Shown here: positions 5,212 through 57,398 of the stretch, in pieces
Numbering within the stretch: the first letter of the stretch is position 1
How the letters are laid out: every line of letters starts with the position of its first letter
The notes under the pieces: generated by a model
Seen by the model: only the letters and a program-made list of their open reading frames with translations
What the model was told of the DNA's origin: nothing
The model's database searches: none
Position numbers and translations under genes: made by a program
Assembly: GCF_036013935.1 (NCBI RefSeq)
Contig: NZ_CP107902.1
Location: 10,015,001 to 10,079,000 of the forward strand
Direction: 5' to 3'
Source of the DNA: Streptomyces sp. NBC_00461
Lineage (GTDB): Bacteria; Actinomycetota; Actinomycetes; Streptomycetales; Streptomycetaceae
Length of the DNA stretch: 64,000 nt

Positions 5212-5952
5212 TTGCCGACGCGACACGAGGAGATCGCCGACGAGCTGCGGAGGGCGATCGACCGCGAGGAGTACGCGGTCGGCAGCAGGCTGCCCGCCGA
5301 GACCGAACTCGCCGCGCACTACGGCGTCTCGCGCGGCACCGTCCGTCAGGCCGTCGCGGCACTGACGGCCGAGGGCCTCATCGGCTCCCGGCAGGGCGCC
5401 CGCCGTGTCGTCCTCGCGAGTCGCCGCAGCCAGAGCTTCGCCGAGCTGCGCAGCTTCGCCCAGTGGGCCCGCGCCATGGGCCGGGTAGCGACGGGGCGCG
5501 TGGTGTCGCAGGAGTATCTGCCGGCCACCGCACAGGACGCCGCCCGCCTCCAACTGCGCGAGGGGGCACGGGTGTTGCACGTCCTGCGGGTGCGTGGCCT
5601 GGACGGCGAGCCGGTCCTGGTCGAGCGTACGGTCTACGCCGACTGGATCTCGCCGGCCGTAGAGGCGATCGACCCGGACGCCGCGTCCGTCACCCAGCAG
5701 CTCTTCGAGGACACGGGTCTCGTCTTCGCGTACGGTGAGCACGTCATCGACGCGGTCGCCGCCGGCGCGCAGGACGCAGGCCTTCTCGGCATCCGCCGCA
5801 CCAGCCCGCTGCTGCGCGTCCGGCGCGTCACGACCACCCGCGAAGGACGCCCCGTGGAGTGGTCCGACGACCGCTACCGCTCGGACGCCGTGAGCTTCAG
5901 CGTGCACAACTCGATAGGCAACAACGCGCTGGCCCGCAAGACGGCGGAGTGA
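5212..5952 (+). CDS. GntR-family regulator, HutC/UTRA subfamily
   Basis: 246 residues from a TTG at 5212, with GGAGGG six bases upstream. The N-terminal winged helix (residues ~5-70) contains PAETELAAHYGVSRGTVRQA, the GntR recognition helix. The C-terminal ~170 residues match the UTRA ligand domain (RVLHVLRVRGLDGEPVLVE and a terminal RYRSDAVSFSV). UTRA domains bind small sugars, amino acids or phosphonates and release DNA. The gene is divergent from the transporter operon and most likely represses it through the palindrome at 5042-5059. Confidence 0.9.
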   Translation: MPTRHEEIADELRRAIDREEYAVGSRLPAETELAAHYGVSRGTVRQAVAALTAEGLIGSRQGARRVVLASRRSQSFAELRSFAQWARAMGRVATGRVVSQEYLPATAQDAARLQLREGARVLHVLRVRGLDGEPVLVERTVYADWISPAVEAIDPDAASVTQQLFEDTGLVFAYGEHVIDAVAAGAQDAGLLGIRRTSPLLRVRRVTTTREGRPVEWSDDRYRSDAVSFSVHNSIGNNALARKTAE

Positions 5953-6040
5953 GACGCGTCCTTCAACTCCTGTATGAGCATGGAGAGTTGATCGTCGGCC
6001 GCCCCCGGGCGGCGACCGAAGTACCGGACGTGAAAAGGCC

Positions 6041-6775
6041 TCACCGACTGACCGGGCGGGCCAGGAGCTGGGTGACGTGCTCACGTACGGCGTCCCACGC
6101 CGGGGTGTGGAGCGTGCCGAGGGACGTGTCGCCCAGAGCGTTGATCGCCCGGTCGGCGCCGGCGCCACCGCCGGCGTGGCAGGGGACGTCGTCCGTGAGG
6201 ACCTCGTAACCGTCCCGGACGGCGACGTGGAGGCGGTCGAGTCCGTCGTCGTGGGCGTGCACCGCGGCGGCGACGGCGAGCGGCGGCGCTCCCCCCGCCT
6301 CGCCGGACAGCTTGCGATAGCCGCTGACGAGGGGTTCCCGCCAGTGGAGGCTGAGCAGGAGGTGGTGCTTGGCCACCACCTCGGCCAGGTCGGTCTCGAA
6401 GACCCGGTCCCGGTCGAGCACGATCCCCCGGGCGTTCAGCACCAGCGCGGCCGGCAGCAGACAGCGCAGCGTACTGCCGACCAGGTTGCCGCCGACCGTC
6501 GCCGTGCGGCGCACGGCTCCCGTTCCGACCCCGGCGGCCGCATGGTGCAGCACCTCGGGCACGCGCTCGTCGATCCGGCTCAGCACCACCGCGGCGCCGA
6601 GCGCCCCGCTCGCGATGACATTGGCCTCCGGCACGTTGCGCAGCGACATCGCCCGCTCGGGGAATCCGTCGCGTTGCCAGCCCGCCCAGATCAGCGTCGC
6701 CCCGCCGACGGGTACAGCTCCTTCGGCGATGCACTCCTGCGCTTCGGACACGGATTCGGGCAGACGTAGCAGCAC
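6041..6775 (-). CDS. Orphan FAD-binding subunit of a molybdopterin dehydrogenase (CoxM/XdhB-like)
   Basis: From a GTG at 6775 the protein is 244 residues (VLLRLPESVSEA); an ATG at 6853 would add 26 residues. Two FAD-binding motifs of the xanthine dehydrogenase/CO dehydrogenase medium subunit are present: VPVGGATLIW and TATVGGNLVGSTLRC. The C-terminal part resembles the CO-dehydrogenase flavoprotein C-domain. Such subunits normally sit in an operon with a 2Fe-2S subunit and a large Mo-cofactor subunit, and neither is nearby. It may serve a distant partner or have a different role. It is convergent with the GntR gene and head-to-head with the next hydrolase. Confidence 0.75.
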   Translation of the reverse strand: MLLRLPESVSEAQECIAEGAVPVGGATLIWAGWQRDGFPERAMSLRNVPEANVIASGALGAAVVLSRIDERVPEVLHHAAAGVGTGAVRRTATVGGNLVGSTLRCLLPAALVLNARGIVLDRDRVFETDLAEVVAKHHLLLSLHWREPLVSGYRKLSGEAGGAPPLAVAAAVHAHDDGLDRLHVAVRDGYEVLTDDVPCHAGGGAGADRAINALGDTSLGTLHTPAWDAVREHVTQLLARPVSR

Positions 6776-6993
6776 AGGAGCCGACCTGCTTTCTCGACGA
6801 GTTGGACCTGAGGTACCGGGCGTCCCGGTCAGGAGGCCGCCGACACGGCGCATCTTCCTCACTCGCGTGGCGGCGCGTACAGAGCTCACTGATCCATTGC
6901 GTGCGCCCCCTCCGCGGCGCCGCCCCGGATCTTCGGGGGAGGATGAGGCGTCCGGAGTGGAGAGGTGCCGTACGCGTGAGGAATGGTGGGGTA

Positions 6994-7674
6994 ATGCAGC
7001 GGAACGAGTCCGCGCTGATCGTGCGCCACGCGCCGCCCGCAACGGCGGCCGCGGCGATCATGACACTGCACGGCGGCCTTGAGCTGAGCCGCCGGACGGC
7101 GCGCCCCTGGCAACTCGCCGCGCTCCGCATGCGCCCGGTACTGCGGGCCGCCGCCGCGGACTCACCCCCGGACACCCTGCTCGGGCAGGTCCGCTACCGG
7201 CACCGGGGCTGGAACACCGGTGACCCCGCTGACGACGCCCTGCGGGCGCTCGACGAACTGCAGCGGTCGGCGGGAGCCGTACCCACGGTCCTCGTGGGGC
7301 ACTCGATGGGAGCCAGGGCTGCCCTGCGAGCCGCGTCCCACCCGCTCGTACGCGGCGTGCTGGCGCTGGCGCCCTGGTGCCCGCCCGTGGACTCCGCCCG
7401 CCATCTCGCCGGCGTAGGGCTGTTGGTCCTGCACGGTGACCACGACCGCGTGACCCCTCCCGCCGAATCCGCCGACTACATACGCCGGGCCCGCGAGGCC
7501 GGAGCCCAGGCCGGCATGGTGGTGGTCACGGGCGGCGACCACGCGATGCTCCGCCGCAGCGCCGACTGGCACCGGGCCACGACCGCGATCGTCGCCCACC
7601 TGCTGCGGCCGGAACCGGGCGCCGAGGGGCTGGTCGCGCAGGCGTACGCGGCGGACGGCGCCGTCCACCTGTAG
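6994..7674 (+). CDS. Alpha/beta hydrolase (dienelactone hydrolase-like)
   Basis: 226 residues from ATG 6994 with GGTGGGG just upstream. The nucleophile elbow is VGHSMGARAAL, the acid Asp lies in LHGDHDRVTPP, and the catalytic His is in GGDHAML. This is a complete Ser-Asp-His triad in a short fold without a lid domain. There is no signal peptide, so it is cytoplasmic. The substrate is unknown. The frame continues open upstream, but earlier starts lack a ribosome site and add arginine-rich sequence, so the later ATG was preferred. Confidence 0.82.
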   Translation: MQRNESALIVRHAPPATAAAAIMTLHGGLELSRRTARPWQLAALRMRPVLRAAAADSPPDTLLGQVRYRHRGWNTGDPADDALRALDELQRSAGAVPTVLVGHSMGARAALRAASHPLVRGVLALAPWCPPVDSARHLAGVGLLVLHGDHDRVTPPAESADYIRRAREAGAQAGMVVVTGGDHAMLRRSADWHRATTAIVAHLLRPEPGAEGLVAQAYAADGAVHL

Positions 7675-7677
7675 CGG

Positions 7678-7694
7678 GGCCGGCGCCGCCGGCC
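7678..7694. terminator. Shared terminator-like hairpin between convergent genes
   Basis: GGCCGGC-GCC-GCCGGCC, a 7-bp perfect stem, sits in the 22-base gap between the convergent hydrolase (stop 7674) and lipase (stop 7697). No T-tract follows, as is usual in Streptomyces. Confidence 0.6.
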
Positions 7695-7696
7695 GG

Positions 7697-8923
7697 TCAG
7701 GGCAGGAGCGGCAGGCTGGAGCAGTTGGAGGCGGCGGGACGGGCGTTGAGCCGGTCGATGAGCCAGGAGATCGCGTCGCCCTGGTCGGCGAGCAGTGGGG
7801 CGAAGTGGTTGATCAGAGCGCGTCCCAGGTTGGGCAGGACCACGGGTTTGTAGGCGACGTCGGCACCCTTCGCACACCAGGCGGCGGCGAGGCGTCGCGC
7901 CTGCGCGTGAGGCACGAGGTCGTCGCCGGTGCCGGTGGCGACCCGCACCGGTGACGCGGGTTTCATCGTGCCGATCCGCTGCTCGTCCAGGAAGGCCTTC
8001 AGCGCCGGCTCGGACTGGATGATGTCGCTGACGGATCGCCCGTCCGTGGTCCAACCGGTGCTGTGCACCGAGTTGTAGGCGAGCAGCGCGTCGCCCACGC
8101 ACATCGTCGACAGATCCTTGAGAGCCGCCCGGCCCGCGGCGTTGAGGTGGGCGTCGGCGATCGGCCGGAGGGCGGGGTCGGACTGCAGGAAACCGTTGAC
8201 CGACCAGCCCAGCGCACCCGCCAGGTCGCTGCCGTCAATCGCCTTGGTGACCTCCGTCAGGTCGGCCGGCGGGGCGCCCGAGTAGGTTCCGGCAAGGGTG
8301 ACGTCGGGAGCGTAGGAGGGCTGCAGTTCGGCGGCCGCAGCGGTCGCGCCGCCGCCCTGGCTGTAGCCGAACAGCGCCACGCGCGAACCGGATGTGATCG
8401 AGGTGCCCGGCAGGGAGCGTGCCGCACGGACGGCGTCGAGGACGGCGTGGCCCTCGTCCACTCTGTTGACGTACGTGTGCAGCCGGTCGGTCGCACCCAG
8501 GCCCGGGTAGTCGGTGACGACCACGGCGATGCCCTTGGCCAGCAGGCGGTAGACGGCCAGGTCCTCGTAACCGACCGAGACCGTCCGGCCGTTGAACCGG
8601 AGCGGGTGCTGCATCCCGAGGGAGGCCGCGCACTGGTCGCCCTGACCCATGGTGCCGGGCGCCACGGCGACCAGGGGCCGTGCTCCGCTGCCCTTCCATG
8701 CGGCGGCCGGTTCGATGTAGGCGCCGGTGACCGCCACCGGACGGCCTCCCGAGTCGGTGGACTTGTACATCAGGCGGGTGGCCGTGCCCGGCAGCGGCCC
8801 GTCGATGCCCGGCAGGCTCAGCGCGAGGGGAAGGGGCTCGCTGCGCACCAGGGCGCCGTCGGCCGAGGGCAGGTCGGCGGGCGGGGTGTAGAACTCCGGG
8901 ATCGTCACACCGCGGGAGACCAC
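7697..8923 (-). CDS. Secretory lipase-like alpha/beta hydrolase with damaged or unusual start
   Basis: 408 residues from GTG 8923. The fold is that of the secretory lipase (LIP) family: nucleophile elbow LFGYSQGGGA, acid Asp in ATGTGDDLVPH, and His near the C-terminus in LINHFAPL. Paired Cys residues are consistent with secretion. In frame upstream of the GTG is a clear signal-peptide core and cleavage region (LLAVAVSTATCLGVSS, then LPATAVQPAG). That stretch has no ATG, GTG or TTG and is cut off by an in-frame TAG at 9020-9022. The chitinase stop is only 24 bases further up. So either translation starts at a rare CTG (9004), or the 5' end was lost or mis-sequenced. Starting at 8923 would give a protein without an export signal. 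Confidence 0.75.
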   Translation of the reverse strand: MVSRGVTIPEFYTPPADLPSADGALVRSEPLPLALSLPGIDGPLPGTATRLMYKSTDSGGRPVAVTGAYIEPAAAWKGSGARPLVAVAPGTMGQGDQCAASLGMQHPLRFNGRTVSVGYEDLAVYRLLAKGIAVVVTDYPGLGATDRLHTYVNRVDEGHAVLDAVRAARSLPGTSITSGSRVALFGYSQGGGATAAAAELQPSYAPDVTLAGTYSGAPPADLTEVTKAIDGSDLAGALGWSVNGFLQSDPALRPIADAHLNAAGRAALKDLSTMCVGDALLAYNSVHSTGWTTDGRSVSDIIQSEPALKAFLDEQRIGTMKPASPVRVATGTGDDLVPHAQARRLAAAWCAKGADVAYKPVVLPNLGRALINHFAPLLADQGDAISWLIDRLNARPAASNCSSLPLLP

Positions 8924-49927: not shown

Positions 49928-50050
49928 CGGCTCGCAAACTCCCTCCCCACACCCCTTCGGCAGCCCCGTTGGAGCGGCGAGCCCGGCCAGGCCCTGGCGT
50001 TCGCCCGTGATGCGTTCGACGGCGCACCCGAGGGCCATCGGCTCGGCTGT

Positions 50051-50353
50051 GTGATCGCCATGGCGCACATCGAGGACTGGGTGGAGTCGGACGACAAGAA
50101 CTGCCTCGTAACCCCGGAGATCCAGGACGAGTTGCTGGACGCGGCCGAGCGCAGCATCCTCCACCCCGCCTACGTGTCCCGCCCTGGCTGGCAGGAGGAC
50201 TTCAACATTTTTGCGATGGCCCTGTCACTGGCGGCCGAGAGGATCGCGTTGCCGCGCGTCTTCGACCAGCTGCAAGGCGCCTGCACATCGTGGCCCTGGA
50301 AGTACATGGCGCAGCCGGAAAAGGCGTACGCCCGCGCCCGGCGCAACGCCTGA
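50051..50353 (+). CDS. Small conserved-looking protein, probably 5'-truncated
   Basis: 100 residues from GTG 50051 (ATG 50060 possible). It is helical with several Trp (AHIEDWVESDDKNC, RPGWQEDFNIFAMALSL, TSWPWKYMAQPEKAY). The same frame extends upstream with equally protein-like sequence (GEPGQALAFARDAFDG, then HRLGC) back to the preceding TGA. It holds no ATG, GTG or TTG before 50051. This suggests the C-terminal part of a longer gene whose start has been lost. No family is recognised. Confidence 0.5.
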   Translation: MIAMAHIEDWVESDDKNCLVTPEIQDELLDAAERSILHPAYVSRPGWQEDFNIFAMALSLAAERIALPRVFDQLQGACTSWPWKYMAQPEKAYARARRNA

Positions 50354-50415: not shown

Positions 50416-52311
50416 ATGACTCTGCCCCACACCCCTTCGAGCCCGGCCGACGCCGACCGCACCTTCCAGGTGGATCTGCGCGGCCTCGTCGATCTCCTCT
50501 CCCACCACCTCTACTCCAGCCCTCGCGTCTACCTGCGCGAACTCCTCCAGAACGCGGTGGACGCGCTGACCGCGCGGCACGGCCTCGAACCGGACGCCCC
50601 CGCCGATGCCTCCGCCGACGCCTTCGGCATCCGCGTGTACGCCGACGGTTCGGTGGTGCGCGTCGAGGACGACGGAGTCGGTCTCACCGAGGCCGACGTG
50701 CACACCTTCCTCGCCACGATCGGCCGCAGCAGCAAGCGCGCCATGGGGGTCCCCCCGGCCGAGCCCATTCGAGGCTGGGGGAGGATCGCCGAGCAACGCG
50801 CCGATTTCATCGGCCAGTTCGGCATCGGCCTGCTCTCCTGCTTCCTGGTCGCGGACGAGATCCACGTCCTGAGTCGTTCCGCCCGTACCCCGGACGCGCC
50901 CGCCGTGGAGTGGCGGGGACGCGGCGACGGCAGCTACACCGTCCGCACCCTGCCCGCCTCCGCACGCCCCCGGCCCGGCACCACCGTCACGCTGACGCCG
51001 CGCGCCGAAGCGGCCGAGTGGACCCGGCCGGTACGGGTCCACGAGCTGGCCCGGCACTTCGGTTCCCTGCTGCGTCACCCCGTGACCTTCCACGACGGCA
51101 CGGCCGGCCCGGGCGCACCCGTGAACGCCGAGCCCGCACCCTGGGCGCGTACCCACCCCACACCGGGAACCCGTTCGCGCGCACTGGCCGCATACGGCGA
51201 GGACGTCTTCGGGTTCACGCCGCTGGACACCATCGAGCTGGACCTCCCGGCCGTGGGGCTGAAGGGCATCGCGTGCGTACTGCCCGAGGCCGTACCGGCC
51301 GGACGACGACACGGTCACCGCGTGCACGTCAAGGGCATGCTGCTGTCCGAGCATGCCGAGGAGATCCTGCCGGAGTGGGCGTTCTTCGTCCGCTGCGTCG
51401 TCGACGCCGAGAGCCTGCGCCCGACGGCATCCCGCGAGTCGCTGTACGAGGACGACACCCTCGCCGCGGTCCGTGACGCCCTCGCCGAGCGGCTGCGCGC
51501 GTGGATCGCCCGGACCGCCGCAAGCGACCCGGACCTCCTCGGCCGCTTCCTCCAGGCCCACCACCTGGCCGTGAAGTCCCTCGCCGTGCACGACGACGAG
51601 ATCCTGCGGATGCTGCTGCCCTGGCTGCCGTTCGAGACCACCGACGGGCACGCCACACTGGACGAGTTCGCACGCAGCCATCGCACCGTGCTCGTGACAG
51701 CCAGCGTGGAGGAGTTCCGGCAGGTCGCCGCGATCGCCTCGGCCGCCGGACTCGGCGTCGTCAACGGCGGCTACACCTACGACCGTCAACTGGTCCACCG
51801 GCTGCCGGAGATCAGACCCGAGGTCTCCGTCGCCGACCTCGACCCGGCAACCCTCACCGCCCATCTCGACCCCGTGGACCGGGAGACGGAACTGGCCGCC
51901 GCGGCCTACCTCGCTCAGGCCCGCGACGCCCTCGCCGTCTTCGACTGCGACGTCGCGCTGCGCACCTTCCAGCCCGCCTCCGCCCCGGCCCTCCTCCTGG
52001 ACAGCCGCGAGGCCCGGCACGAGCGCACCCGCTCCCAGCTCGCGCGCGAGCAGCAGGGCGGCCTGTGGGGCGACATCCTCGGCCACCTGCGCCAGGAAGC
52101 CCCGAGGGCCCAGCTGATCCTCAACCAGCTCAATCCGCTGGTCCGTACCGCCGTCACCATCGACGAACCCGAACTGGCCCGCACCAGCGCCGAAGCCCTC
52201 TACGGGCAGGCGGCGATGCTGTCCCGGCGCCCGCTCAGGCCGGCCGAATCGAGCCTGATCAACCGCTCCTTCCTCGACCTCCTCGCCCACGCCCTCCGCA
52301 AGGACAGCTGA
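50416..52311 (+). CDS. HSP90-like (HtpG-related) ATPase
   Basis: 631 residues from ATG 50416; no clear ribosome site. The N-terminal GHKL ATPase has the N-box YLRELLQNAVDA (Glu and Asn for Mg-ATP), VRVEDDGVGLTEADV (DxGxG), and the lid end FIGQFGIGLLSCFLV. The HSP90 middle-domain signature includes SLRPTASRESLYED with its ATP-contacting Arg near 335. The C-terminal ~250 residues differ from HtpG and carry no MEEVD-type tail. It is followed by a TPR protein two bases later. In eukaryotes TPR proteins are HSP90 co-chaperones, so a dedicated chaperone/co-chaperone pair is a fair inference. Confidence 0.9.
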   Translation: MTLPHTPSSPADADRTFQVDLRGLVDLLSHHLYSSPRVYLRELLQNAVDALTARHGLEPDAPADASADAFGIRVYADGSVVRVEDDGVGLTEADVHTFLATIGRSSKRAMGVPPAEPIRGWGRIAEQRADFIGQFGIGLLSCFLVADEIHVLSRSARTPDAPAVEWRGRGDGSYTVRTLPASARPRPGTTVTLTPRAEAAEWTRPVRVHELARHFGSLLRHPVTFHDGTAGPGAPVNAEPAPWARTHPTPGTRSRALAAYGEDVFGFTPLDTIELDLPAVGLKGIACVLPEAVPAGRRHGHRVHVKGMLLSEHAEEILPEWAFFVRCVVDAESLRPTASRESLYEDDTLAAVRDALAERLRAWIARTAASDPDLLGRFLQAHHLAVKSLAVHDDEILRMLLPWLPFETTDGHATLDEFARSHRTVLVTASVEEFRQVAAIASAAGLGVVNGGYTYDRQLVHRLPEIRPEVSVADLDPATLTAHLDPVDRETELAAAAYLAQARDALAVFDCDVALRTFQPASAPALLLDSREARHERTRSQLAREQQGGLWGDILGHLRQEAPRAQLILNQLNPLVRTAVTIDEPELARTSAEALYGQAAMLSRRPLRPAESSLINRSFLDLLAHALRKDS

Positions 52312-52313
52312 CG

Positions 52314-55253
52314 ATGCCGACCGCACCCCTTCCCCGGAACACAGACGAGCTGTACCGGGCACTCCAGGAGAACGACCGGCGCCCCTACGGCCGCACCCGC
52401 ACCGTCACCGCAGAGGAACTCGTCGACGCCGCCGAGCAGTTCGCCGAGCCCGTCCCGCTCGTCCACGCGCTCCTGGAACTCCAGGAGGCGTACACCTACG
52501 GCTCCGAGCCCCGCAAGTCACCCGTCGTCTTCGCCCGCCTGCTCACCCTCTTCGACGAGCAGCCCGACGTCTTCGACGAGCGCCTGCGCCACCAGCTGTT
52601 CTGGCGGTTCAAGTGGGTGGCCAACGCCCTGCGCGCCCTGCCCGAGGTACCGCTGAGCAGCCTGCGGCAGTGGCAGACGGAGATGCGCGACCGGTACGAG
52701 AAGGCCGGCCTCGGCCTGCAGCCGTACTACGGACAGGCCTACCAACTCGCCGCCCACATCGGCGAGGACACCACCCGCGCCTACGAGCTGTGGGCGGCCC
52801 GCAGCCGCACCCGGCTCAGCGACTGCGAGGCCTGCGAGATCTGCGAGCAGGCCCTCCACCACCTGACGACCGGCGACGACGAACGGGCGCTGCGCACCTG
52901 GGAGCCCGTCCTGGCCGGGAAGGAATCCTGCCAGGAGGAGCCCGCCCGCTCCGTCTCGTACGCCCTGCTGCCCCTGCTGCGCACCGGACGCACCGACCGG
53001 GCCCGCGAGCTGCACCTCGCCGGTTACCGCGGCTGCCGCCGCAACCCCTCGATGCCCGGGGAGGTCGGCCGGCACCTGGAATTCTGTGCGCTGACCGGCA
53101 ACGAGGCACGCGGCCTGGAGCTGCTCGCCGAAAACCGGAACCTGTTCGACGAGGTCGACTCGCCGCTGGACGTGCTCAGCTTCCTCACCGGCGTGGAGGT
53201 CCTCCTCCAGCGTGTCGAACTCCTCGGCCACGGTGGACTGCCCGCCGCCGGATACGCGGGCCGCACCTGGACGGTGGCCGGCCTGCGCGCCGAGATACGG
53301 GACCGTGCCGACGAACTCGCCGCCCGATTCGACGCCCGCAACAACACCAGCGCCCACACCGACCGCCGCACGGCCCGCCTCAAGCGCGCGCCGCTCCTGG
53401 ACGCGCTGGAACTGACCCTGCGCACCCGCAGCCTCGGCACCGTCGCCCCGGCCGTCCAGGCTGCCCCGCCCGCCGCTCCCGCGGCCACCACCGCACCCGA
53501 GCCGCTGCCCGAACTCATCCTTCGGGCAAGGGCGTTGAGCGAGCAGGGACACCCTGACGCACAGGCCTGCTGGACGCGCCTGCGCACGCTGGTCGCCGCC
53601 CCCGACTACACCCACCCCGACGACGCGGCCGTGGGCCCGCTCGCCCGCCTGCGCGCCGACCTGCTGACCGAGGATGCGAGCGCGGCGGGCGAGAAGGACC
53701 AGTTCACCGTCGCGGCAGCCCTCCACGAGCAGGCCGCGGGCCTGTACGACGACGCCGGGGAGCCGGGGCACGCGGCGCTCGCCCGCGCCTGCGCCCTGGT
53801 CGCCATCGCAGAGACCCCTGGGCAGGGCGCTGACGGAGCAGAGACGAAGACCGCCGCGCTCACCGCAGCACACGCGTCCCTCGTCGGCCTCCACGAGAAG
53901 ACATCCGGCCTCACCCCCTACCAGGAGGTCCGTCTGCTGCGACTGCGGGCGACCGTGCTCGGCCTGCGACTTCAGGCGTCGCGGAACGAGGAGCACGTCG
54001 CGCCGGTCCTCGCCGAGGCCGACCTGCTGCACGAATTCGCCACCCGGTACGACGTCGTCGGGCAGATCTCCGGCGCCCTGCTGCTGCGGGCCGGCACCCA
54101 CGCCCTCTCCGGCGACCTGCCCGCCGCGGTCACCGAGATCGACGCCCTCCGGGACCGGCTTGAGGCACACGGCCCCGCCTGGCACCTGCCCCGCACGCTC
54201 GGACTGCGAGGCCGGTTCCAGCTGGGCCTGCGAGACGCGCAGGCAGCCCACACGGACCTGGCCGAGGCTCTTCGCCTGGCCGCCGAGTGGCCCGCCAAAA
54301 CGGTCGGCACCGCCCGCCTGCACGCTGATCTGGCCGAGGCCTGCCTGCACCTGGGCCGCCCGGACGAGGCACTGCGGCACCTCACGCGCTCCGCGGAACT
54401 GGAACTGCGCCACGGAAACCGCACGGAGGCGTTCTGCACCTACAGCAACGCGGCCCAGCTCAGCCTCGACCTGGGCCGGGTCGAGGACTGCATCGCGCTG
54501 CTCGACTCGCTTCTGACCGAACCGGACGTCGCGTCGGGGGAGTTGGACGACCGGCTCGCCGCCCAGCTGCGCCTGACCCGCGCCCGCGCGCTGCACGCGG
54601 GCGATGACCTGAAGGCCGCCACGGCGGAGTTCGCCGCCCTCGCGGCCGAGTCGGCAGGCTGGGACGACGACCCGGGAAGCCACGCCATGATCGCCGCGGA
54701 GACGGCCGTACTCCTCGGTGAGTCCGGCGAGTTCGACCGCGCCCGCGAGGCCGTCGACCAGGCACTCGCCGCCCACGTCCACGAGCCGCGCTACGAGCAG
54801 CTCAGCAACTGCCTGCGCGAACTCGCCCGCCTCAAGGCGAACCAGCACGGCCCCGACGGCCTGGCCGACGCCCTCGCCTTCCTCGCCGACGCCGGCCGGG
54901 TCGCGGACGAGGCCCGCGCCGCCGCCTTCGAGGCCCGCGGCCGTTCCCTGGACACCGCGCTGGCCTACGAACACGGTCGGGTCAACGCCTACGCCGGTCA
55001 GCACGAGGACGCCTTGGCCGCCCTGGACAAGGCACTCGCGCTGCTCGGCGAGCCGGGGCCACAGGACGACCACGCCGGCGAGTGGGCCGAGTGCGTCCGT
55101 CTCGCCGGTGCCGTGGAAGGGCTCTACCTGAAACGTCCTGCCCCCGCGCTCACCCGCCTCGACGCGGCGGTCACCCGCCTGACCGCCCTGGGCCACACCG
55201 AGGAAACCGAACCGCTCACCTCCTTGGCGACCCGTCTGCGCGACGAACAGTGA
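52314..55253 (+). CDS. Giant TPR protein coupled to the HSP90-like gene
   Basis: 979 residues from ATG 52314, two bases after the HSP90-like stop. The N-terminal ~370 residues are helical with a Cys cluster (RLSDCEACEICEQALHHL near 165-180, and KESCQEE), possibly a metal site. A Pro/Ala/Thr linker (~385-400) leads to ~560 residues of TPR-like helices (DAQAAHTDLAEALRLAAEW, RPDEALRHLTRSAELE, HEDALAALDKALALLGEPG). There is no signal peptide or membrane helix. Translation is tied to that of the HSP90-like protein, so the two probably act together. No nuclease, TIR or other effector domain is obvious. Confidence 0.88.
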   Translation: MPTAPLPRNTDELYRALQENDRRPYGRTRTVTAEELVDAAEQFAEPVPLVHALLELQEAYTYGSEPRKSPVVFARLLTLFDEQPDVFDERLRHQLFWRFKWVANALRALPEVPLSSLRQWQTEMRDRYEKAGLGLQPYYGQAYQLAAHIGEDTTRAYELWAARSRTRLSDCEACEICEQALHHLTTGDDERALRTWEPVLAGKESCQEEPARSVSYALLPLLRTGRTDRARELHLAGYRGCRRNPSMPGEVGRHLEFCALTGNEARGLELLAENRNLFDEVDSPLDVLSFLTGVEVLLQRVELLGHGGLPAAGYAGRTWTVAGLRAEIRDRADELAARFDARNNTSAHTDRRTARLKRAPLLDALELTLRTRSLGTVAPAVQAAPPAAPAATTAPEPLPELILRARALSEQGHPDAQACWTRLRTLVAAPDYTHPDDAAVGPLARLRADLLTEDASAAGEKDQFTVAAALHEQAAGLYDDAGEPGHAALARACALVAIAETPGQGADGAETKTAALTAAHASLVGLHEKTSGLTPYQEVRLLRLRATVLGLRLQASRNEEHVAPVLAEADLLHEFATRYDVVGQISGALLLRAGTHALSGDLPAAVTEIDALRDRLEAHGPAWHLPRTLGLRGRFQLGLRDAQAAHTDLAEALRLAAEWPAKTVGTARLHADLAEACLHLGRPDEALRHLTRSAELELRHGNRTEAFCTYSNAAQLSLDLGRVEDCIALLDSLLTEPDVASGELDDRLAAQLRLTRARALHAGDDLKAATAEFAALAAESAGWDDDPGSHAMIAAETAVLLGESGEFDRAREAVDQALAAHVHEPRYEQLSNCLRELARLKANQHGPDGLADALAFLADAGRVADEARAAAFEARGRSLDTALAYEHGRVNAYAGQHEDALAALDKALALLGEPGPQDDHAGEWAECVRLAGAVEGLYLKRPAPALTRLDAAVTRLTALGHTEETEPLTSLATRLRDEQ

Positions 55254-55459
55254 TCCACAGGTAGTGGCGTGGTGCCGGGTCGGGCTGTCGACCCGGCACC
55301 ACGACCCCGTCGTGGCTGTCCACCGTGGGCTGTCCACCAGGGAGCGGCCGGGGCTGGCAGGGGCACGGCAGGGAGTCGGGCAGCCAGGCGGGCGTGATGT
55401 GGCACTCCGGACCTGCGGGTTCGGACGAGCGCGACGGCCGACTTCGATCCTTCACCGGG

Positions 55460-55830
55460 TTTGCGACAGCCGCGGGCGAGCAGAGCACGGCCGCAATGCT
55501 GATGCTCGGGCTGTCGCTGGGGTGCCTGCGCGGCACCATGTCCGCGACACTGCCGGCACTGTTCCCGACCCAGGTGCGCTACGGCCCCCTGTCCATCGGC
55601 TACAACCTCGCTGTCTCCCTGTTCGGCGGCACCACCCCCTTCGTCATCACCGCGCTGATCTCCGTGACCGGGAACGACCTCATGCCCGCCTTCTACGTGA
55701 TGGCCGCGTCCGTCGTCGGTGTGATCGCCGTGGCGTGCATGCGGGAGACGGCACGACGGCCTCTGGCCGCCTCGCCGCCCTCCGTGGCCACCCCGAGGAG
55801 GCCGCCCGCATGGTGGAGAGCCGGGCACCG
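55460..55830 (+). pseudogene. C-terminal relic of an MHS-type MFS transporter
   Basis: About 120 residues match the end of proline/betaine-type metabolite:H+ symporters: CLRGTMSATLPALFPTQVRY, then LSIGYNLAVSLFGGTTPFVI, then VIAVACMRETARRPL. At least two-thirds of the gene is missing upstream. The stretch follows the HSP90-TPR pair directly and ends against the DHA2 exporter. Confidence 0.75.
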
Positions 55831-55919
55831 ACGCCGAGGTTCTGACGCGCGCGTGGTGTGCCCTCCGCCGGGCGGGAACCCTGATGCAATCAGGTCGACA
55901 CACAGGCGAAGGAGAAGCG

Positions 55920-57398
55920 GTGCCGACGCAGGCTGACGCCGACGGACCCGACCCACGGCGCTGGAAGGCGCTGTGGGTCACGCTGGTGGCCGGGTTCATG
56001 AGCCTGCTGGACGTGACGATCGTGGCGGTCGCGCTCCCGTCCATGCAGCGCGACCTGCACGCTTCGGCACCCGCCATCCAGTGGGTGGTCTCCGGCTACG
56101 CCCTCACCTTCGCCCTGGTCCTGGTGACCGCCGGCCGCGTCGGTGACGCGATCGGCAGGCGCCGTATCTTCCTGCTGGCCCTGGCGGCCTTCGTCCTGTG
56201 CAGCGCGGCGGCGGGCGCGGCACCCGGCATCGCGTTCCTGATCGCCGCCCGCCTCGCCCAGGGCGTCGCGGCGGGCTGCCTCGCCCCGCAGAACTCCGCC
56301 CTCATCCAGCAGATGTTCAGAGGAGCCGAACGCGGGCGCGCCTTCGGTCTGTTCGGCGCCGTCGTGGGCATCTCCAGCGCCGTGGGCCCGATCGTGGGCG
56401 GCCTCATCCTGACACTCGCCGACGGCCCTCAGGGCTGGCGCTGGATCTTCTACGTCAATGTCCCGGTCGGCGCCGTCGCCCTGCTGCTTGGCATGCGGCT
56501 GCTGCCCAGGACGGCCCCCGGCCGCCGGGAGCCACTCGACCTGGGCGGCGTCGCCCTCCTCGGGTGCGGGGTCCTGGCGCTGATGCTGCCGCTGGTCCTG
56601 GCCGAGTCGGGCGGCGTAGGACGACTGTGGTGGCTGTTCCCGGTGGGGGCGGCCTTGCTGGCCGGCTTCGTACGGTGGGAGCGGCGCGTCGCCGCCGGCA
56701 ACGGCCAACCGCTGCTGGACCCCCGGCTCGTCACGACCACACGCGGCTATGCCGTCGGCGCGGCCATCGCCACGCTGTACTTCGTCGGCTTCAGCGGAGT
56801 GTGGCTGGTCTTCGCCCTCTACTTCCAGAACGGCCTCGACTACTCGCCCCTGCGCTCAGGACTGGCGGTGACGCCGTTCGCGATCGGATCGGCCTGCGCG
56901 GCGGCACTGGCAGGCCGCCTCGTGGACCGATGGGGCCGCCTGCTGACCGTGTGCGGCCTGGTCGGCGTGACGCTGGGCCTGGGCGGCACCGCGCTGATCC
57001 TCCTCCTGGCACCCGCCCACGTGGCCGCCTGGCTCACCGTGCCCGTGCTGTTCGCAGGCGGCCTGGGCAGCGGATGTGTCATCTCCCCGAACATCACCAT
57101 GACCCTGCGCGATGTACCGGTGCGCATGGCCGGCGCGGCCGGCGGCGCCCTGCAGACCGGGCAGCGGCTCGGCGGATCGGTGGGCACGGCGGCGCTGCCC
57201 GGCCTCTTCTACGTCGTGCTGGGCGCCGGCGCCCACGACTACCGCACCGCCGTGGCGACCGCCGTCGGCCTCGGCATCCTCCCCGTCGTGTGCTCGCTCA
57301 CCCTCGCGGTCCACGACTGGCGCCACGATCGCCGCGCCGACCGGCACCAGAGTCCACCGGACGTCTCGCACGGCCACTCGCACGCGGGTCAGGGCTGA
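55920..57398 (+). CDS. DHA2-family MFS drug exporter (EmrB/QacA type)
   Basis: 492 residues from GTG 55920, with AAGGAG six bases upstream. Motif A-like GRVGDAIGRRRIFLLAL, motif C-like AVGPIVGGLILTLAD, and the first-helix motif LDVTIVAVALPSMQRDL are all present. About 12-14 membrane segments are visible. It should export a hydrophobic compound by proton antiport. No TetR/MarR regulator is adjacent. Confidence 0.9.
   Translation: MPTQADADGPDPRRWKALWVTLVAGFMSLLDVTIVAVALPSMQRDLHASAPAIQWVVSGYALTFALVLVTAGRVGDAIGRRRIFLLALAAFVLCSAAAGAAPGIAFLIAARLAQGVAAGCLAPQNSALIQQMFRGAERGRAFGLFGAVVGISSAVGPIVGGLILTLADGPQGWRWIFYVNVPVGAVALLLGMRLLPRTAPGRREPLDLGGVALLGCGVLALMLPLVLAESGGVGRLWWLFPVGAALLAGFVRWERRVAAGNGQPLLDPRLVTTTRGYAVGAAIATLYFVGFSGVWLVFALYFQNGLDYSPLRSGLAVTPFAIGSACAAALAGRLVDRWGRLLTVCGLVGVTLGLGGTALILLLAPAHVAAWLTVPVLFAGGLGSGCVISPNITMTLRDVPVRMAGAAGGALQTGQRLGGSVGTAALPGLFYVVLGAGAHDYRTAVATAVGLGILPVVCSLTLAVHDWRHDRRADRHQSPPDVSHGHSHAGQG

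Follow-up and report, generated by a model that had tools for sequence, protein, structure and literature searches.

Bacterial HSP90 proteins comprise ancient paralogues, described as HTPG groups A, B, and C (PMC1525184) or as hsp90A, hsp90B, and hsp90C (PMC3708813), and Streptomyces coelicolor carries two HTPG genes that belong to different groups (PMC1525184). The second study, which excluded hsp90B and hsp90C from its analysis, states that no obligate Hsp90 co-chaperone had been identified in bacteria, and in the available parts of both main texts no partner gene is described and the term “TPR” (tetratricopeptide repeat) has no occurrences. For Escherichia coli HtpG, PMC4428384 reports that no co-chaperone had been identified. 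Mycobacterium tuberculosis HtpG is reported to associate with DnaJ2 (PMC10269695), so HtpG is not without partners. The htpG gene SCO7516 is listed as lowered by acid shock (PMC2631018). In eukaryotes, Hsp90 is accompanied by TPR co-chaperones such as Hop, FKBP51, PP5, and AIPL1. Here, we describe a gene pair from Streptomyces sp. NBC_00461 in which an HSP90-type ATPase is likewise joined by a TPR helical-repeat protein, called T below. The window, meaning the whole stretch of DNA that was analyzed (64,000 nucleotides [nt]), spans positions 10015001-10079000 of the 10.37-Mb single-contig genome. Literature searches, whose reach did not extend to most subscription papers or to any bioRxiv preprints, returned no description of such a pair.

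The HSP90/T operon is conserved in Actinomycetota

The genes for HSP90 (50416..52311, plus strand, 631 amino acids [aa]) and T (52314..55253, plus strand, 979 aa) are both intact and lie in the same orientation with 2 bases between them, as the initial annotation had observed. Among 296 class-level genomes, the HSP90 profile NF010683 matches above its cut-off in 36 and T is found in 38; 35 genomes have both, 1 has HSP90 alone, 3 have T alone, and 257 have neither. The gene next after HSP90 encodes T in 41 of the 42 above-cut-off loci. At the remaining locus (G149), its place is taken by a 297-aa protein with TPR_2 and TPR_8 above cut-off and a poor match to the N-domain of T (E 0.13). In a second, named collection, T follows HSP90 in 80/80 loci, which are the best 80 of 560 confirmed and, as this selection favors relatives of the query, not a random sample; the two genes overlap by 4 nt in 52 of these 80. 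The named loci come from Kribbella, Crossiella, Actinoplanes, Micromonospora, Amycolatopsis, Nocardia, Actinomadura, Kitasatospora, Segniliparus, and others, and 2 of them hold an HSP90 already present in the first set; within each of two locus pairs (L036/L120 and L040/L133), the HSP90 is the same. Among the best 120 relatives listed for HSP90 and for T, those with names are nearly all from Streptomyces.

Co-conservation had been chosen beforehand as a test of the proposed self-contained HSP90/partner module, and the pair proved to be co-conserved. The proposal is thus supported by the near-constant gene order in both collections, as well as by homologous partners in Bacillota (see below). 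That the two genes adjoin in many other Gram-positive bacteria suggests a dedicated partner for this HSP90.

Within Streptomyces, HSP90 was found in 75 of 121 genomes, 13 of them with both an arm-type and a core-type copy, the arm type being defined by at least 66% HSP90 identity; the Streptomyces counts of 75, 13, and 29/29 (the last given with the upstream gene below) were read by eye from match rows, without a script. The window genome also carries a core-type pair at 6.97 Mb, and the copy in the window, which lies roughly 0.3 Mb away from the end of the contig, is a second, accessory one of patchy occurrence. The only PF00183 matches in this genome are the two NF010683-type genes, with no canonical HtpG among them. 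We considered the pair as a replacement of HtpG and rejected this, since an HtpG-like match of 175 to 201 bits is likewise present in at least 10 of the 36 genomes (G018, G057, G107, G112, G123, G182, G196, G199, G261, and G269). In the HSP90 tree, the HtpG-like proteins of G018, G057, G107, G112, G196, and G261 group with HtpG.

HSP90 assignment and ATPase residues

The window HSP90 reaches 813.4 bits with NF010683 (PRK14083, “HSP90 family protein”; cut-off, 455) and 189.1 bits with the HtpG profile NF003555 (cut-off, 371), and on these profile scores it belongs to NF010683 and not to HtpG. NF010683 models the protein only, and its description mentions no partner. HtpG of the E. coli type has the three-domain HSP90 fold and the ATPase residues in common with the window HSP90 and falls on a separate side of the tree, into which 27 of 116 aligned HSP90s were taken. 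These 116 rows comprise 113 actinobacterial loci (the window, 32 from the class-level set, and 80 from the named collection), together with Paenibacillus, Listeria, and a fecal clone, with the window and two repeated loci included.

Borders judged from the AlphaFold2 model place a GHKL N-domain at residues ~15 to 230, a middle domain at ~250 to 430, and a C-terminal domain at ~505 to 628. The GHKL ATP-binding set (E42, N46, D85, G87, G89, and the GQFGxG loop) is kept in 115 to 116 of the 116 rows, as befits a member of the HSP90 superfamily, and E42, N46, D49, D85, G89, G133, G136, G138, and R340 are present in all of them. E42, within the N-box region R41 to A50 (50536..50565, plus strand) that also holds N46 and D49, is putatively catalytic, which we take from the alignment with TRAP1 and from general knowledge of HSP90. 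The middle-domain residues R340-E341 (51433..51438, plus strand), kept in 116/116 rows, align with the SRE motif of TRAP1, and R340 presumably acts as the HSP90 catalytic arginine. The window HSP90 is predicted to be an active ATPase and to dimerize.

The initial annotation had described a C-terminus unlike that of HtpG. We rejected a non-HSP90 C-terminus, given the NF010683 score and an HSP90 fold along the whole chain in the model, which was built from a hand-picked alignment (28 of 33 locus HSP90s and 5 others). As a monomer, the model aligns with TRAP1/Hsp90 up to residues 622 to 631 in many rows of the structure search. An EEVD-like tail is found at the C-terminus of 0/116 aligned HSP90s.

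T combines a cysteine-bearing core with a variable TPR array

All parts of T lie on the plus strand. An N-domain (residues ~4 to 361; 52323..53396) forms the conserved core and includes the cysteine cluster C171-x2-C174 ... C206 (52824..52931). It is followed by an Ala/Pro-rich linker (residues ~365 to 397; 53406..53504), with pLDDT below 50 for residues 376 to 394, and by a C-domain (residues 398 to 979; 53505..55250) that some relatives lack. Pfam identifies T as a TPR protein by TPR_2 (score, 32.2; gathering threshold, 27) and TPR_12 (31.6; 30.1), both within residues 628 to 697 of the C-half. On their own, the N-terminal 371 residues match no Pfam family, and T has no match in a sequence search against solved structures. 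In the model, made from a hand-picked alignment of 25 of 32 locus T proteins and 5 database proteins, the C-half is a TPR superhelix resembling those of peptide-binding proteins; the structure-search rows for full-length T are filled by this half and by long solenoids, so that fold relatives of the N-domain are barely covered.

The cysteine cluster noted initially is well preserved. C171 and C174 are found in 113 of 115 T N-halves and C206 in 114, in both phyla, with L095 (N-terminus not recovered) and L107 as exceptions; these rows omit L050, which has a different TPR protein, and L078, where the contig ends early. Identity to the window T falls to 22 to 26% in distant actinobacterial rows. 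Compared with seven arm-type relatives, the ratio of nonsynonymous to synonymous substitution rates (dN/dS) is 0.11 to 0.17 for HSP90 and 0.32 to 0.38 for T, and in every comparison the N-half of T has a lower value (0.25 to 0.32) than the C-half (0.33 to 0.43).

A tblastn search of the plasmid collection with the window HSP90 returned six records, from three Streptomyces, one Paenibacillus cellulosilyticus, and two Listeria monocytogenes, of which those of 0.4 to 2.9 Mb may be chromosomal. The Paenibacillus HSP90 gene overlaps a 353-aa gene by 4 nt, and behind the HSP90 gene of the annotated Listeria record come, after 11 nt, a 324-aa gene and then one of 320 aa. In locus L156, a tandem pair of T-like genes (5797-7762) stands behind the Listeria HSP90. 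The small Bacillota proteins are homologous to T residues 15 to 352 (probability, 100; E 3.4e-45), sharing the blocks D-C-x-x-C, G-K-x-x-C, and F-D-x-R-N, and a search with them gave 198 matches, the named sources among the 120 listed being Listeria, Paenibacillus, and one Bacillota metagenome-assembled genome.

As a form of 320 to 353 aa stands behind HSP90 in both genera, the conserved core is the N-terminal ~350 residues with the three cysteines, and the size of the window protein is due to its C-terminal TPR array. Short actinobacterial T genes of 355 aa (L141) and 367 aa (L104), each with other genes after it, agree with this. The C-terminal TPR superhelix is the variable part of T. The Listeria gene lmo0941, termed hypothetical and showing selection signals (PMC6901971), is probably one of the tandem T-like genes, since lmo0942 adjoins fri (PMC3534079).

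A putative chaperone/co-chaperone machine

We consider it probable that HSP90 and T form a dedicated chaperone/co-chaperone machine. HSP90, whose lineage is distinct from that of HtpG, would be a clamp driven by ATP, and T its private co-chaperone, whose N-domain may dock on HSP90 and tune or gate its cycle. The three N-domain cysteines could serve as a metal site or thiol switch, and the C-terminal superhelix, where present, could capture clients or client peptides. Gene order, the 4-nt overlap at many loci, the occurrence of homologous pairs in two phyla, and intact ATPase residues are observed and speak for this proposal, as do the modeled HSP90 fold of the whole chain and the modeled superhelix of the T C-half; a physical HSP90-T interaction, the role of the cysteines, and the nature of the clients are what we infer from them. 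Unlike in eukaryotic Hsp90/TPR pairs, the HSP90 and T genes are adjacent, and T lacks a sequence match among solved structures. As none of the 116 HSP90s has an EEVD tail either, we do not expect docking by the EEVD mode of eukaryotes.

A wider proposal, which we put forward tentatively, is that of an ancient, dedicated bacterial machine in which a non-HtpG HSP90 is coupled to a helical-repeat co-chaperone bearing cysteines. It would either be older than the divergence of Actinomycetota and Bacillota or have passed from one phylum to the other, and its docking would have been invented independently of the EEVD/TPR clamp. If true, the operons of HSP90-like and TPR genes in Cyanobacteriota and Pseudomonadota would mean that HSP90 acquired TPR partners several times. 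As a conserved neighbor that has homologues in both phyla, T is a concrete and genetically tractable candidate, and it could reveal how the cycle of an HSP90 is controlled when the EEVD motif of eukaryotes is missing.

Several observations weigh against the proposed machine. Conservation of an operon is no proof of a complex, the spread of the pair is patchy (HSP90 in 36/296 class-level genomes), and the Bacillota sample consists of two genera. T also occurs apart from an NF010683-type HSP90: 3 of 38 genomes (G089, G095, and G295) have it in this way, G196 holds an additional copy, and a plasmid record of Actinomyces carries another. In G095 and G196 it comes after a YbjN-domain gene (PF10722; E 2.5e-26 and 2e-28, respectively), and on the Actinomyces oris plasmid record it is two genes behind one; with three such places, T is not tied to HSP90 alone. 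Searches upstream of 113 HSP90 genes gave 0 matches each for CIRCE, HAIR, and RheA-type operators, and in L107 all three conserved cysteines of T are lost. GAAC-N4-GTTC was seen upstream of 5 of the 113 HSP90 genes versus a shuffled mean of 1.2. The YbjN-associated T loci without HSP90 are L148, L149, and L161.

Alternative roles of the pair

A client-specific assembly factor, in which HSP90 would serve the maturation of a single enzyme or complex, with T as a client-specific adaptor or as the client itself, seems unlikely. The patchy distribution would fit such a specialized role, as would the variable C-half of T and its other contexts with YbjN proteins. However, no third gene recurs across families as a possible client, the commonest neighbor family being present in 24 of 113 loci.

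The initial annotation had also guessed at phage defense, with HSP90 as an NTP-driven sensor and T as a recognition platform in a conflict module, which we regard as quite improbable. NTP-dependent conflict systems of multicellular bacteria do combine NTPases with TPR scaffolds, as the window pair does, yet “hsp90” and “ghkl” have no occurrences in the available text of PMC7159879, and we, like the initial annotation, find no effector domain in the pair. PADLOC gave weak TmtA matches of HSP90 only, confined to its GHKL part (best E 5e-5), and none for T; no defense gene was recognized among 12 neighbor-family representatives judged by eye, a viral-contig scan gave 65 pattern matches with no relative among them, and the dN/dS of HSP90, about 0.13, likewise argues against this role.

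On the other side, the copy in the window is accessory, a second one near the contig end, and HSP90 is found on three Streptomyces plasmid records, one of them typed mobilizable. On the latter (L157, S. globosus), HSP90 has 66% identity, with a 1,033-aa “hypothetical protein” encoded immediately behind it and one of 325 aa ahead of it; the operon can thus travel on a plasmid. An 877-aa HSP90-like protein of a Pseudanabaena plasmid (L162, 3956-8819) is extended at its C-terminus and encoded close to TIR, DEAD-helicase, and TPR genes; it looks like a conflict-type version. On a Xanthomonas plasmid (L163, 3947-8170) an HSP90-like gene is followed 24 nt downstream by that for a 774-aa TPR protein with no match to T. 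Both HSP90-like proteins fall outside the window clade in the tree. Also contrary to our verdict, five records of the phage collection match HSP90, mostly short unannotated fragments; five match a Listeria T protein, and the labels are Listeria phage, Bacteriophage sp., and Salmonella. We take the Listeria- and Bacteriophage-labeled records (unannotated, 1.5 to 6.6 kb) for putative bacterial fragments. Locus L159 (MT837560.1), a 6.6-kb “Bacteriophage sp.” record with HSP90 and T, is perhaps a bacterial contig filed as phage. A defense role of the pair has little support, although the plasmid copies and the Pseudanabaena and Xanthomonas genes speak for it.

Finally, a redox or metal stress sensor, in which C171, C174, and C206 bind zinc or form a disulfide that switches HSP90 activity, would account for cysteines kept in both phyla despite the low identity of T in distant actinobacterial rows, but nothing was found that links the pair to oxidative stress, and such a sensor, highly improbable as an alternative, is compatible with the chaperone/co-chaperone proposal and does not exclude it.

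Upstream gene c2 and flanking regions

The stretch at 49928..50353 (plus strand), initially read as a gene relic of an accessory island, is a 5'-truncated copy of a gene, c2, that belongs to the same operon. Similarity begins at 49961, the remainder covering c2 residues 261 to 387 (49961-50344, 67% identity) with an in-frame stop before it. A c2 gene (329 to 505 aa as called) lies directly upstream of HSP90 in seven arm-type relatives and one more distant, and Pfam matched no family in three c2 examples. Among 121 Streptomyces genomes, the arm type is present in 29, and a c2 match stands upstream in 29/29, counting the truncated window copy and one at a contig edge. The c2 match is interrupted by a stop codon in G386 and G400, and c2 occurs without this HSP90 in G325.

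We therefore reject the accessory island in part, as the relic is operonic and the neighbors elsewhere are family-specific; what still speaks for it is the patchy occurrence of this second copy and the presence of its relatives on Streptomyces plasmid records. Downstream of T, the open reading frame at 55325-55936 resembles by eye the 3' part of an MFS transporter, with no Pfam match.
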